A DNA stretch of 64,000 bases from Arabidopsis thaliana (lineage: Eukaryota > Streptophyta > Magnoliopsida > Brassicales > Brassicaceae), in NCBI RefSeq assembly GCF_000001735.4, contig NC_003074.8, positions 8,618,101 through 8,682,100 of the forward strand, given 5' to 3'. The translations under genes and the position numbers were made by a program. The notes beneath the pieces were generated by a model. It worked only from the letters and a program-made list of their open reading frames with translations, ran no database searches and had not been told where the DNA came from. This document shows, piece by piece, positions 13,425 through 44,717 of this stretch. Positions within the stretch are counted from its first letter, which is position 1. Every line of letters begins with the position of its first letter.

Positions 13425-14587
13425 TAGGTAAGCATGTTGACAAGGAAACTTGAGGACATGGACTAGCAGAAGTTATAGGGCAAAAAAGTTTGGCACTTTT
13501 ATGTTAGAAGTATTAAAAATTTTGATCTTCCATAACTGGACAGTGTCAGAAAATGCCAAAGTATTACAACAAAGTTTCTGACGACAATCCACGAACACAT
13601 TAAGGAGATCGAAACGAAATAAAAACCGCACAAACTCTTCATGAAACGCTAAGTTGTGGAGTGAAGGTGGTTCTTGGTACTCAAGTTTGAGAGGATTCAT
13701 TGGAATGAAGTTCTTCACTGTTTTGCTGCACCATCAAACCTGAAAGGTAGTAGAAGTGAAGAACTCATATGAAGACAGGGTAAGGACTTAAATCGGTAAG
13801 CACGTTGAAATTACCTTTTACCTATAGAATCCAGATGTTCCTATGACTTAAGAATAATCCTTTTCTCCTCAATCTGATTTTCAAGTTCAAACATGTGAAA
13901 AAGGGTGTATAAGTAACTAGGCAGTTAAGTGGTAGAGCTCTAATCTTTTTCTATTAAAACCAGAAATGAACTAATCTCTACACAATATAAAGCAACAAGA
14001 AGACAAGTAGTGGCATGCAAAGAAAGTAAGCACCAAAATAACTTCTGGAAATTTTTCATGTTAAATCTTAACCACTACCTACAAAATTATTCAGGGACGG
14101 GAAACTATAATCAAAAGGACAGTATATGATGTTTTAGTTTTGCCTTAGCGATAGCTCAGTGCTTCCTACCACATTAGGACTAATTAATCAGGCCAAGCAA
14201 GAGTTGGAACAACTGGAAGATTATATGTAAACAGATGAAAATTTTGTTGAGATAATTTATATGTTCACACACACACTTCTTCTCCTAGAAATAAAAACCG
14301 CACCTTAAACTTCTCATCATCATTTGCATCACCTCTTTCCACTGAGCTGCTAGATGGTGGATTCTCTTTTGACTTCTCCACATCCTAAAATAAGAATCAC
14401 AGAACCGTCAAAACAAAGTTTTTTGGTTCCAGGGAAAAAACATTTACTGAGGAATTACAAGGCAATAATCTATTCAATCCACTAACCTGTGATGACATCG
14501 AATCCAATGACAATAAATGACCTTCAAGATTCCTTTCCTGCTGACTAGAATCTGTCGAGTTCATAAAAGAAAGCTCCTATTATAAGG
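13425..14587 (-). pseudogene. truncated duplicate of the CENP-O-like gene
   Basis: This block aligns in the same orientation and order with the CENP-O-like gene at 18.3-20.6 kb. 13425-13735 matches its 3' flank and last exon, and about 13715-14587 matches its exons 5-8 and introns. The middle (exons 9-11) is missing, because exon-8 sequence is fused directly to last-exon sequence near 13730. The copy of exon 7 has lost its AG acceptor (AC before ATGTTTGAA) and contains a TAG. The copies of exons 5 and 6 remain spliceable and form the last two exons of the adjacent RNA-binding protein gene. Confidence 0.85.
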
Positions 14588-17500
14588 ATGATTAATATCG
14601 ATATAATGCTTCTCCATTAATAAACTTTTAAGATACCTGAATTTGCATCTCCATCGTCAACTTTCTCATAATCTGAGTGGGGTTTCTCTTTCACAGATTT
14701 TGATCCAGAGTGTCTTTTCTTGATCTTATGATCCTCTGAACTAACAGGAGATAATGATCTATCGCCCCGTCTTTTGTCACGTCCAGGAGATGATGACCGC
14801 AATCTTTCATGACGTTTTGACCTTTTATCTCTTGAACTGTTCTTTTTCTCTATTGATCTTGACCTGGAGTGCCGTTTATGTCTTGATTTCTTTTCATCAG
14901 AATATCCAGGGGATGACCTGATATCTCTCCCTTGCTTACCCTCAGATGATGGTGACCTCGACCGTCTTCCACTACGACGCTTGGACTTTTTGTCCCTGCT
15001 TCGAGTCTCCTTGTTATAACTGCGCTTACCTTCCACTGATTTTGACCTGGACCTCCTTCGACGTGATCCTGTGTTTCTGTCTTCATCCAGCTTATTCTTC
15101 CTAGAAGACCTGTTTTTCGTTTCCAATGATCTGGACCTGGACCTTCCCCTCCTCTCTTTCATATCATAGTCCTCGTCCAATGATTTTGACCTGCGCTTAC
15201 TGTGACGGGAATTTAGATCATTGTCTTGAGCAACATCAACATTCTCATGAGATCCATTGTCATTTTCCAATGATCTGGACCTAGACCTCTGCCGGTGTTT
15301 CTGTTTAGCTTCATCAGAATTTCGAGATGTGTCTCTGGTTTTACTCCTATCTTCACGAGATCTTGACCTCGACCGCTTTTTGTGATGTTTCAATTCCTCA
15401 TCTCTAGATTTATCCTTTATATCTGCAGAATCTTCCACTGATCTAGATCTTGAACGTGTTCTACGTTTCACTTTGTTTTCCTCATCATCTCTTGGGGTTG
15501 ACTTAACTTCCTTACGTCGCCTTGGTGATCGTGAACCAGCACGAGATGATTTCTTCTCTCCACGTGATGAGCTATCTCGTCGAAGTCTTGACAGCTCTGA
15601 ATCTTCTTGTCCAGATTTTCTCTTTTTAGGGCTTACACTCCTACTTCTCCTTGAACTAGAAGAATGGTGTTCATCTGATCTACCGTATCTCCTACTTTCA
15701 GAAATATCCCTAGAATCTCTATATGACCGCCTTCTCCCTTCATAAGTTGATCGCCGTTGATATCTTAATGGTGATCTCGATCTGTGACTTCTTGGGCGAC
15801 GAAACGGTGGTGAATAGGTTGGAGATCTCCGTCTTCGCCTGTAACTTATTGGTGATTTTGACTTTGATCTCGACCTTGCAGGAGACTTAGATGGTGACCT
15901 GCACAAGAGAGGTGACTATCAGTTCAGATGAAAACGTTATCAAAAAGAGAAAGGAGCAAGCCATAGGTAATAGAGAGAAACGTCTATAGATTTTTATTGG
16001 ATGCCCACCTAGACTTCTGATCAGCTTCTTTTTCATCATTTCCAACTCCATCAGGTCTCAGTTTCCTACTTATCTCTGCAGCTCTAGCTGCTGCAAGCTC
16101 AGTGGCAGACTTCATTGTGGCAGCTCTATTTGCTGCCTGCTGAGTAGCCACGGCTTGTTGCATTAGTATAGCCTGCTGGAATTGCATCTGCTGCATCGCG
16201 ACGGCCTGTTGCATCATCAGTGGTAGTGAGGACGAAGAATTATTTGAAGATGGTTTGTGAGGTAGCGATTTTGCAATCTCAACATTCAATGCTCTACCAA
16301 AGACTTCCGTATTGTTTAATGCCAAAGCAGCTGTTGCTTCTTCGGAATTCGAGTATTCTATGTAGGCGATATGCTTTGAATCAGTTATACTACAGTCAAC
16401 TACTGTGCCACAGAAGCTAAATAGCTGCCTAAGTTGTTCAGTTGTAAGCGATGGACTTAGGTTGCTAACTTGGAGAAATTTCTTCAAATCCCCGTTTTCT
16501 CCTTTTTCTGGGGAACCTAAACCAAAAGCTAGTAGAACTCATGAGTATCGAGAAAACTAAATAAATATCTAATGATATTCAACTTGAGACCCAAAGAAAA
16601 AATAGAGATGAATATCGAGAGACTAGCAACAAAAGGTACAGTACCTAAAGATCCCTTGTTTGATTGAGCCTGTGCTTGCATCTGAGAAGCATGAGCTTGA
16701 AGAGCCTGTGCAGCAACAATAGCCTGCGCAGCAGCCATTGCAGCAGCAGAAGGAGCCATAGGCACCTGACTAAGGTTACCCATACTTGTCGTTGCAGCTA
16801 TAGCAGTCATCAGCAAATTCTGAGGAGGGTGGTTTAACTTGCACATAGAGTTCACACATCTACCATTAAGATATTCTCGACAAACTTCCCCAAGTGAAGC
16901 TCCAACTCCAGGCAAAATAGCACCACCTGAAGGACCAGATGCAATCCCTGGAACCATCCCCAACAACCCCGGGAAAGCACCCGAAACAGAACCAGTGTAA
17001 TTAGGCATGTTTGGCATTGTTTGATTTATAAGATTCGAGTATGAAGCTGGAGCAGAACCCATCAGTCCAGTAGAAGAAGACCCTGTTACAAAATTCCATA
17101 AAGACAACACCTTTACCATCAAACAAAGCCTATATACATAAACGAAACATCAATGGAAACGATAAGATTCATTACCTTGGCTAAAGAAGACAGGAAAGGG
17201 ACTTCCCATGATAGCATTCCCATTGCATTCAATATTAACCATATAGTTTCCTCTCTTAGGCACAACATAAGTAACAGCATAACTCCCATCACCAACATCT
17301 TTAACCACACCTTCTTGATCAGTACCACCAACACCAACACCAGGAGACACTTTAACTCTAATCAAAGCTCCACCATTTGGAACTTTCCTCCCATCAGAAT
17401 CCTTAGTTACAACAACAAACGTAGACGGAACACAAGCCGTTCCACCACCAATACCAGCACCAGAAGCTGTAGACTTACTCGGATCCACAGGACCAATTGG

Positions 17501-34807: not shown

Positions 34808-36064
34808 CTAATTAGAAGGCTGTGGACGAGGGAGACGGGACAACCAACGAGGGAGAACATACTGTGAAGCGAGGAGAAGGTTAGGACCACCTTGAAACGA
34901 TGGGGAAAAGTATCTATGAACGGTCTCCATATACTCGTTGCACCAGTTAAAGCTCAAGGTGCAACCATCCATACACTTCCTCTCGTCTTCGGATTCCTTG
35001 TGAAGACTAAACACATGCGTCCTCAAGTTAAACAAGACCATACCTTTCTTGTTTCTGCTCCACAAGTAGATGATCTCAGACTTCAAAGGATGCATCACCA
35101 CCGGGAAGTAATCGATACCTAGCTTGGTCACAGACGCCAAGCTGGCTTCCCAAAAGAGCTGCCACGCCTCAGGACCATCAGTGTACTTGACCAGCCTCCA
35201 AACCCGTACTTTGCGGTTTGCGTTCCCACCAAACTCGTTGAAATACACAATAGACCCTTCCGAGGTAGTGATTGTTCTCCGAAAACGCGGTAACTCGTAA
35301 TCTTTTCCATTATCGGGGAAATAAATGATACTACACGCATCATGATGACCTCCATAGAAATCGTAAGCTAAAAAAGAACCGGTGAGGTTGGAAAGCCAAT
35401 GAAGAATCCCATTTAAAGCAATGGACTTGTGATGACTAAACCAATAGGCAGAATGAAGACAAGTCACATTTTTAATTTCCCATTCCCCTGTGTTAGATGA
35501 GTAAATCGCAAAATCGACTTGAGCAAAAGTGTGAGCGATCAACCACACAACCTTGTAACTCACAACAATACCACTTTGCATCTTTGTAACCAATCCACTG
35601 TCGCTGAAACGCTCGTGGTTCCTTAATTTCTCAACATTTTGAGAAGTGTATTTAGGACGGAGAGGGATTCGAAACCACTCTTGAAACAAAGGATTACCAA
35701 CGTAATACATAGGAGTTCCAACGCAAGATTCTACGTAAAGAAGGACCAACCCATCGGTACAAGCTAAGACTTGTAGTTTCCTGATTGTGGTCTCGGCAAA
35801 GAAACTCACTAAAGATCCGGGAGAACGAGTAAGTCCCCATGTTTTGCATCCATGGTGACCAACGATTTCAAGTGTCAGTTTGTGAGGTCTCGTTTGGATG
35901 ATTGACCATGAGACTGAGGAAGAGTTGTGAGACATGAAGCAATCTCGGAAGAATTCGGAGTCGATGACCAGTTTCCATTCTTTGCACATTGATCTGAATC
36001 TTGCGAGGCTCTTCAATGGAAGTCGCACCAAAACTTCAAAGGTCAATTCTGGTGGTATATTCAT
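34808..36064 (-). CDS. F-box protein (At3g23950-like)
   Basis: 418 residues, start chosen at the ATG at 36064 (MNIPPELTFEVLVRLPLKSLARFRSMC), where the F-box begins at once. A strong acceptor (poly-pyrimidine, GCATGCAG) ends two bases before this ATG and a donor lies at 36353, so the leader probably contains an intron (36067-36353). After the F-box (about 1-42) there is a beta-rich associated domain. The protein would recruit unknown substrates to SCF ligases. It is a close duplicate of the gene at 42347-43588: the first 85 or so residues are almost identical, and divergence is concentrated in the middle third. No frame breaks seen. Confidence 0.9.
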   Translation of the reverse strand: MNIPPELTFEVLVRLPLKSLARFRSMCKEWKLVIDSEFFRDCFMSHNSSSVSWSIIQTRPHKLTLEIVGHHGCKTWGLTRSPGSLVSFFAETTIRKLQVLACTDGLVLLYVESCVGTPMYYVGNPLFQEWFRIPLRPKYTSQNVEKLRNHERFSDSGLVTKMQSGIVVSYKVVWLIAHTFAQVDFAIYSSNTGEWEIKNVTCLHSAYWFSHHKSIALNGILHWLSNLTGSFLAYDFYGGHHDACSIIYFPDNGKDYELPRFRRTITTSEGSIVYFNEFGGNANRKVRVWRLVKYTDGPEAWQLFWEASLASVTKLGIDYFPVVMHPLKSEIIYLWSRNKKGMVLFNLRTHVFSLHKESEDERKCMDGCTLSFNWCNEYMETVHRYFSPSFQGGPNLLLASQYVLPRWLSRLPRPQPSN

Positions 36065-36066
36065 TT

Positions 36067-36353
36067 CTGCATGCAAAAAAAAAAAAGACACATAACCAAT
36101 GAAATGAAATGCGATACTCAAATTACAAATTAGATTTGTTTTTCTTAAAAACCACATTTATAAGATAAAAATTAAATTAAATTAATCGAATCTACATATA
36201 AATATATCAACGATATAATATACGATACTTTTCCCATGCGGACAAAAAAAATGATCGCTTGTTTTGTAAAATGCTTATCGAGAAGAGGTTAAATTGAGTT
36301 TGTTGTGATGGTCTAACTAATGGTAGCGAGAGAGAAAATACTATATCTCTTAC
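36067..36353 (-). other. probable 5'-UTR intron of the F-box gene at 34808-36064
   Basis: The minus-strand donor ATCAG|GTAAGA (exon end 36354) and acceptor TTTGCATGCAG (ending 36067) frame a 287-bp AT-rich interval. The same signals recur in the paralogue (43591-43912). Confidence 0.6.
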
Positions 36354-42346: not shown

Positions 42347-43588
42347 CTAAGAAGGCTGCGGACGAGGGAGACGGTGCAGCCAACGAGGAAGAACATACTG
42401 TGAAGCGAGGAGATAGTTAGGACCACCATAGTTATGGATAGTCTCCATATACTCGCTGCACCTGTTAAAGCTCAAGGTGCAACCATCCATACACTTGGTC
42501 TCGTCCTCGGATTCCTTGTGAAGACTAAACACATTAGTCCTCAAGTTAAACAAAACCATACCTTTCTTGTTTCTGCTCCACAAGTAGATGATCTCAGACT
42601 TCAAAGGATGCATCACCACCGGGAAGTAATCGATACCTAGCTTGGTCACAGACGCCAAGCTGACTTCCCAAAAGAGCTGCCACGCCTCAGGACCACCAGT
42701 GTACTTGACCAGCCTCCAAACACGTAATCTTCGGTTTCCGTTCTCACCAAACTCGTTGAAGTAGACAATAGACCCATCCGAGGTCGACAATGTTCTCCTA
42801 AAACGCCGTAACTGATCATCATCTTTTTCACAATCAGGGAAAGATATGATATGACATGCATAATCATCATGACCTCCATAGAAATCGTAAGCTACAAAAG
42901 AAGTGCTGAAATTGCAAAGCCAATGAAGAATCCCATTCAAAGCAATCGGCTTGTGATGACTAAACCAGAAGGAAGAATGAAGACAAGTCGCAATTCGAGC
43001 TTCCCACATGCCAGTATCAGATGAGTAAATCAAAAAGTCGATGGTTGTACTATTGCGAGGGAACAACCACACAACCTTGTAACTCACAACGGCACCACTC
43101 TGCATCTTTATAACCAATGCACTGTCGTTGAAACGCTGGTGATTACGTATTCTCTCAACACTTTGCAAATAGAAGTAAGAAGGGAGAGGGATTGGACACC
43201 ATTCTTGAAACAGAGGATTACCAACGTAATGCATTGGAGTTCCATAGCTAGTTTCTGTGTAAATAAGGACCAACCCATCGGTACAAGCTAAGACTCGTAG
43301 TCTCTTGATTGTGGTGTCGGCAAAGAAACCCACTAAAGATCCTGGAGAACGAGTAAGTCCCCATGTTTTGCATCCATGGTGACCAACGATTTCAAGTGTC
43401 AGTTTGTGAGGTCTCGTTTGGATGATTGACCATGAGACTGAGGAAGAGTTGTGAGACATGAAGCAATCTCGGAAGAATTCGGAGTCGATGACCAGTTTCC
43501 ATTCTTTCCTAACTGATCTGAATCTTGCGAGGCTCTTCAATGGAAGTCGCACCAAAACTTCAAAGGTCAATTCTGGTGGTATATTCAT
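42347..43588 (-). CDS. F-box protein (At3g23970-like), paralogue of the gene at 34.8 kb
   Basis: 413 residues from the ATG at 43588 (MNIPPELTFEVLVRLPLKSLARFRSVRKEW). A leader intron is likely (43591-43912), with the same signals as in the paralogue. The F-box occupies about residues 1-42, followed by the same beta-rich associated domain. Compared with the paralogue, the N-terminal 85 residues and the C-terminal 100 are almost unchanged, while the middle (about 100-260) has many substitutions and small indels. This fits purifying constraint on the F-box and faster change, or gene conversion, elsewhere. Substrate unknown. Intact frame. Confidence 0.9.
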   Translation of the reverse strand: MNIPPELTFEVLVRLPLKSLARFRSVRKEWKLVIDSEFFRDCFMSHNSSSVSWSIIQTRPHKLTLEIVGHHGCKTWGLTRSPGSLVGFFADTTIKRLRVLACTDGLVLIYTETSYGTPMHYVGNPLFQEWCPIPLPSYFYLQSVERIRNHQRFNDSALVIKMQSGAVVSYKVVWLFPRNSTTIDFLIYSSDTGMWEARIATCLHSSFWFSHHKPIALNGILHWLCNFSTSFVAYDFYGGHDDYACHIISFPDCEKDDDQLRRFRRTLSTSDGSIVYFNEFGENGNRRLRVWRLVKYTGGPEAWQLFWEVSLASVTKLGIDYFPVVMHPLKSEIIYLWSRNKKGMVLFNLRTNVFSLHKESEDETKCMDGCTLSFNRCSEYMETIHNYGGPNYLLASQYVLPRWLHRLPRPQPS

Positions 43589-44717
43589 TTCTGCATGCAA
43601 AAAAAAAAAAAAAAAAACACATAACCAATGAAATGAAATGCAATACTCAAATTACAAATTAGATTTGTTTTTCTTAAAAACCAAATAAGATAAAATGTTT
43701 AAATATAATAATCAAACCTCATTAAAAAAAAGTGATTCATGACTTCAAAAAATGAAAAACTAATTAATTGAATCTATATGTAAATATATCGATAATATAA
43801 TATACAAGATTTTTCCGTGCGGACAACAAAATCGATCGCTTGTTAGTAATCAAATATTTATTGAGAAGAGTTGAATTTAAGTTTGTCGTGATGATCTCTT
43901 ACCTGATTTCGTTAGAAAGGAGAAAAAATCATAACAAATGAAGATTTTTACGGTGGGCGGCGGCAACGAACAAAGTAGGTTATCTTATCGAAACTATGAG
44001 GTTAAACAAAAGATTACACATATTTATAGAATAACAAAATAGGATTATGGTAACTCAAAGTCTCTAATATACATCTTTTTATATCAACCACTCGTTTGTT
44101 TTAACCCAATTCTGATTGGTTACTGAAGATAAAGTGTAATCCACAATGGCTTCTAAATGTTTTAAATTTTAGATTAGATTAGATTATCATTAGATACCAG
44201 ATAGTTCCTCTTGTTGAATGGCTCATATACTCTTAGATCAAATTGTGTGTGTGTAATCACCTAATTGTACTTCGGACTGAAATGAACAGTATTTGAACAT
44301 AACCGATAGTGTTAACACTTGTATTTCATAGTTTGATCAAGTCTTCAATTTAAAACGAGAAGATAAAATATATCCGAAACCATACAAGATTTTTTCTTGG
44401 TAAATTATATTTGCTAGGAGGAACACTTTAACTTGGCTATATAATCAACAATTACAAAATTCAGACAAAAACGCACTCATATAACAACTACCTTTCTCTC
44501 TGTTTAAGCTTCCGAGTCTCCTCTATCCATTTGGAACTCTTCAAGTTCATGGTGTTTCTCACTATACCATTTTTGCTCAATCCAATGAAATCCAAAATTT
44601 TGGATCAAAAGAACCAAATGAATTCTTCCAAAACTAAAGGAGAAGAAGCAATCCATGGCTGTGCCCGGGATATACAGAATGGCAACAAGGGTCACGACTG
44701 AGCAAGCCATCCATGCA

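Follow-up and report, generated by a model that had tools for sequence, protein, structure and literature searches.

Genes can become chimeric when part of a gene is duplicated and flanking exons are recruited, a process of gene fusion or exon shuffling treated in reviews and in a survey of fusion genes in Oryza. In such cases a copy lacking its 5′ part is spliced onto an existing gene and provides that gene with a 3′ end. We read the 3′ end of the Arabidopsis thaliana gene AT3G23900 as a chimera of this known kind, judging from its sequence, with the difference that the host keeps its splicing-factor domains and gains only a short tail, on which no selection was detected. AT3G23900 encodes IRR, an immunity-related (immunoregulatory) RNA-binding protein (PMC8197431), whose relatives include OsSCR106 of rice and human SRSF11 (PMC10837019). 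The mutant line irr-1 (SALK_015201) also has a mutation in phyB (PMC8197431). The sequence resembling the tail belongs to a neighbouring gene, ZWINT1.1. ZWINT1 is a subunit of the KNL1 complex, and its plant form was reached via HHpred. ZWINT1.1 and ZWINT1.2 (421 and 428 amino acids) are 95% identical, are encoded 150 kb apart on chromosome 3 and were both recovered in purifications of the KMN (kinetochore) proteins, and ZWINT1.1 was found at centromeres (PMC12595034). Exons 5 and 6 of ZWINT1.1 are the apparent source of the IRR tail; the rest of the ZWINT1 protein is absent from it, and its 12 C-terminal residues come from a former intron.

The window analysed here is a stretch of 64,000 nucleotides of A. 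thaliana chromosome 3 (chr3:8618101-8682100), and genome searches covered the 119.66-Mb genome in 7 contigs. Positions without a chromosome prefix refer to the window. The six-exon model of IRR is open for 989 codons and then reaches a stop (Table 1). Pfam searches of the predicted protein gave matches above cut-off to Filamin (3e-19) and RRM_1 (7.3e-14), and a match to zf-CCCH_10 of 20.9 bits, under the cut-off of 27. An RS domain is seen in the translation of the RS-rich exon 4. The RRM and RS domain expected of an SRSF11-like protein are therefore found together with the filamin repeat of the plant protein, and the first-pass annotation, which had named the gene IRR-like, was right in this.

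Exon 3 of IRR has two alternative donors 6 nt apart, and the choice between them changes the computed protein length by two residues. An event of At3g23900 classed as 'Alternative 5′SS', of 118/125 bp, present at 30:70 in Col-2 and responsive to AtGRP7, is listed in Table 2 of PMC3526319. The two donors roughly fit this event, the published sizes differing by 7, one more than they predict. We also considered whether the event reflects a choice of acceptor at tail exon 5 (14551 or 14544, 7 nt apart), in which case it would have shown splicing of the tail directly, and rejected this because the paper lists alternative 5′ splice sites, a category that the exon 3 donors fit better.

Table 1. Positions in the window of the exons of IRR, of its ZWINT1-derived segment and of the neighbouring donor gene
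Feature	Position	Strand	Basis or remark
IRR body, exons 1-4	17752-17176, 17082-16645, 16516-16009, 15898-14637	-	gene model
IRR exon 3, two alternative donors (6 nt apart)	exon ends at 16009 or 16015	-	GTCTAG and GTGGGC
IRR exon 5	14551-14487	-	copied from ZWINT1 exon 5; 54 of 65 nt identical, ungapped
IRR last coding exon	14384-14265	-	copy of ZWINT1 exon 6 and read-through of old intron 6
Whole ZWINT1-derived segment	13442-14585	-	end of intron 4, exons 5-7, intron 7, start of exon 8, end of exon 12, 3′ flank
Dead copy of ZWINT1 exon 7	13815-13894	-	no acceptor AG; TAG in frame
Start of exon 8 joined to end of exon 12	13680-13739	-	6-nt overlap of the blastn pieces where they join
ZWINT1.1 (AT3G23910), donor	21244-18494	-	12 exons, 421 aa, complete; gene model
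Donor exons 5 and 6 of ZWINT1.1	20572-20508 and 20429-20349	-	gene model

At the level of the genome, the fusion of IRR to ZWINT1 sequence is real. In blastn comparisons the region 14585-13726, at the 3′ end of IRR, aligned with ZWINT1.1 (20606-19821) at E 6.8e-112 and 68% identity, gaps counted. Both exon copies are free of gaps, with 11 differences from the donor over the 65 nt of exon 5 and 10 over the 81 nt of exon 6 (14384-14304; 71/81 identical), and 36 of the 49 residues of the aligned tail peptide are the same as in ZWINT1.1. Exon 4 ends in phase 1 in IRR and in ZWINT1.1 alike; the fusion can be read thanks to this agreement, which chance would give in one case out of three. The first-pass annotation had placed the last two exons of the gene at these positions, spliced in frame, and had aligned them with exons 5 and 6 of the neighbour with matching intron positions and phase, most residues kept, and a stop at 14265 reached by reading past the old donor. 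The alignments and the gene model agree with it on each of these points. Thus two parts of a single reading frame trace to different genes, and the donor is still present.

Part of the similarity is exact. A stretch of 42 nt spanning the boundary of intron 5 and exon 6 is identical between IRR (14401-14360) and ZWINT1.1 (20446-20405), and the spliced coding sequences of the two genes have 28 nt exactly in common (eight 21-mers). Short reads or guides are ambiguous between IRR and ZWINT1.1 at exon 6 because of this shared stretch.

The copied segment extends well beyond the two exons used by IRR. The match is firm to about 13552 (E 1.2e-7); the final piece, 25 nt that reach 13442, matches weakly (E 0.009). 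The copy passes the donor's stop codon and enters its 3′ flank, and about 1.27 kb of the donor, the interior of exons 8-12, is missing from it. The neighbour's copy had been described as truncated, which holds in that it is partial, but it is longer than was noted, reaching exon 12, the stop codon and the 3′ flank. At the acceptor of exon 7 the copy reads TTTTTCAC|ATG and the donor TTTTTCAG|ATG, CAC replacing CAG. The reported loss of this AG is thereby borne out, and an in-frame TAG was found in the copied exon in addition. As the copied exon 7 has no AG and carries a TAG, IRR cannot use it as the donor does, and reading runs on to 14265. The arrangement had also been called tandem, which is a loose term, because IRR itself sits between donor and copy.

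Taken together, it is likely that a partial copy of ZWINT1 supplies the 3′ end of IRR, with transfer from the complete gene and a tail that is tolerated. An intron-containing copy made at the DNA level, running from intron 4 to the 3′ flank of ZWINT1, would have landed where IRR now ends. The donor of IRR exon 4, in phase 1, would then be spliced to the copied acceptor of the same phase. By this splicing IRR would gain 61 residues, 49 of them ZWINT1-like and 12 read from old intron 6, and the stop codon that IRR now has, perhaps along with the 3′ UTR, would likewise come from the copy. Transfer probably ran from ZWINT1 to IRR, and we speak of a gain by IRR because the copy is a fragment whereas the donor is complete. 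One complete ZWINT1 paralogue and two decayed fragments lie elsewhere on chromosome 3.

The segment may have arrived in one step, as an insertion made during repair or by template switching, or by block duplication followed by deletions. Under block duplication, ZWINT1 and IRR would have been duplicated together in tandem, and later deletions would have eliminated the second IRR and joined the first one, at its 3′ end, to the second ZWINT1. The common orientation, the position of IRR between donor and copy, and the extension of the copy into the donor's 3′ flank all suit such a course. No second piece of IRR lies beside the copy, however, the only other IRR-like DNA found being at chr3:8584484-8584663, and several deletions would be needed where a single insertion takes fewer steps. 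We regard block duplication as possible but not the likelier course, and it bears on the route rather than on the resulting structure. The IRR-like fragment, which is outside the window, is 180 bp long, is 78-80% identical to IRR and matches the last part of exon 3 as well as portions of intron 3.

Alternatively, the tail could have a function in IRR and be kept by selection as a C-terminal module, such as a short interaction segment, helical or acidic, taken from ZWINT1. Its frame and splice sites are intact, whereas exon 7, beyond the new stop, no longer has its acceptor and has acquired a stop. The 146 nt of the used exons contain no indels, whereas intron 5 has 1 such event and intron 6 has 9; yet the dead exon 7 is likewise without indels over 80 nt. 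The used exons differ from the donor at 21 of 146 positions and dead exon 7 at 8 of 80 (Fisher p 0.41), a comparison of little power because constraint on the ZWINT1 side slows both classes of exon. Introns differ more (114/437) than either the used exons or dead exon 7 (p 0.003 and 0.001). Between the tail and exons 5-6 of ZWINT1.1 dN was 0.139 and dS 0.244 (NG86). The tail has 13 amino-acid changes where random substitution would give 14.5 (P 0.29), and the probability that 21 random substitutions leave no stop is 0.40. The substitution pattern therefore looks neutral, within the low power of tests on 146 nt, and a selected module seems unlikely. The tail is probably for the most part a tolerated C-terminal extension and a supplier of the 3′ end.

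Somewhat less likely again is that the fragment is a non-coding piece of pseudogene, splicing onto it being an annotation artefact or a minor isoform, and that the main product of IRR has 934 residues and ends in GILKVY. A product without the tail would reach 928 residues at the donor of exon 4, or 934 with intron 4 retained, since retention leads to a stop six residues further on. A literature search for four tail peptide strings did not find them in published papers, which would suit such a product. Against it, full-length IRR cDNA has been amplified with primers given in a supplement (PMC8197431), and AT3G23900.1 of TAIR7 is listed with a length of 988 (PMC2996939). This length fits models that contain the tail and does not fit 928 or 934.

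We enumerated single-junction changes within 40 nt that give products of 986-988 residues. Among the variants listed, all six products of this size pass through the tail exons, five of them in frame, and joining exon 4 directly to one last unspliced exon gave no product of 987 residues. A length of 987 is reached with the exon 3 donor at 16015 and the full tail. The published 988 equals this model solely if lengths in that table include the stop, as we presume from the lengths of AHA1 and others in it. A further 51 chains with another exon beyond exon 6 likewise give 986-988 residues, and length alone therefore leaves the 3′ end of IRR unfixed. The fusion is probably present in the mRNA as well, the published length being an indirect sign of it.

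The identity of the donor differs from the one first proposed. The chimeric C-terminus had been attributed to a CENP-O-like neighbour. The partial copy, its readability in frame and the read-through to a new stop in the gene model all stand, but the donor is ZWINT1.1. A paralogue very similar to the 421-residue model lies some 150 kb from it on chromosome 3, as described for ZWINT1.1 and ZWINT1.2 (PMC12595034), and the genome search located the exons of ZWINT1.2 at chr3:8788949-8793205. The Pfam Zwint profile (PF15556) has no match in this genome, and likewise none in 14 control genomes, which makes it uninformative here. That the neighbour is a CENP-O gene is scarcely credible: no point in its favour was found, the CENP-O profile PF09496 has no match at E<=1 in the donor protein, its sole match in this genome is at chr5:3381389-3381511 (one candidate scored), and Table 1 of PMC12526889 gives ZWINT1.1 and ZWINT1.2 as AT3G23910 and AT3G24255 and CENP-O as AT5G10710.

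Since ZWINT1.1 and ZWINT1.2 are identical over exons 5-7, they must have split, or last exchanged sequence, long after the tail arose. At sites where the two differ, the tail agrees with each at 5 and with neither at 2, a tie as to which is the nearer one. K2P distances between copy and donor were 0.19 in intron 5, 0.36 in intron 6 (a loose alignment) and 0.38 in 36 nt of intron 4. A literature search for a calibration of synonymous divergence yielded split times only. At assumed substitution rates of 0.7-1.5e-8 per site and year, a dS of 0.24 corresponds to about 8-17 million years, and the whole range of divergence to about 6-27. Capsella, Cardamine and Eutrema split from A. thaliana about 9, 17 and 26 million years ago, respectively (PMC8290292). 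The divergence of 0.19-0.38 thus suggests that the tail arose around the splits of Capsella to Eutrema. Set against these split times, the age estimate leads us to expect that A. lyrata shares the tail, which is probably confined to part of the Brassicaceae. Searches with the RRM region of IRR gave 73 pattern matches in prokaryote contigs and 14 in viral contigs, none of them confirmed in either set, a result that is uninformative on plants.

Two decayed stretches of ZWINT1 were observed elsewhere on chromosome 3. One, at chr3:8795352-8796049, about 2 kb downstream of ZWINT1.2, holds pieces of exons 5, 6, 10 and 11 whose identity to ZWINT1.1 reaches 98%, with single gaps in the exon 6 and exon 10 pieces. 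When exons 5-6 were compared with this fragment over 107 columns, 14 sites differed only in the tail, 5 only in the fragment and 1 only in ZWINT1.1. The other is more diverged (75-91% identity), lies about 2.2 Mb away on the minus strand (chr3:10888000-10892000) and covers parts of exons 8, 9 and 11 with adjacent introns.

No description of an IRR-ZWINT1 chimera was found in the literature, although one may exist in supplements or in the paper that first described IRR (Dressano et al. 2020). Our search found no paper naming AT3G23900 together with AT3G23910 or AT3G24255, and none combining ZWINT1, 'immunoregulatory RNA-binding' and 'splicing'. If transcripts confirm the tail, a studied regulator of Arabidopsis immunity has a C-terminus from a kinetochore gene. 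This would be relevant to C-terminal tagging of IRR, to comparison of IRR between species, and to short reads or guides that fall in ZWINT1 exon 6. IRR would also be a clear and roughly datable case of a 3′ end built from a partial copy of a neighbour. It is very improbable, in our view, that the tail links an immunity splicing regulator to an essential kinetochore gene. As a peptide it might form an interaction segment that competes with ZWINT1 for a partner; as RNA, the exactly shared 28 nt might suffice for small-RNA cross-talk between the IRR and ZWINT1 mRNAs.

Elsewhere in the window, two very similar open reading frames (34808-36157 and 42347-43651) lie about 6 kb apart and are apparently duplicates; we take them to be F-box-like.
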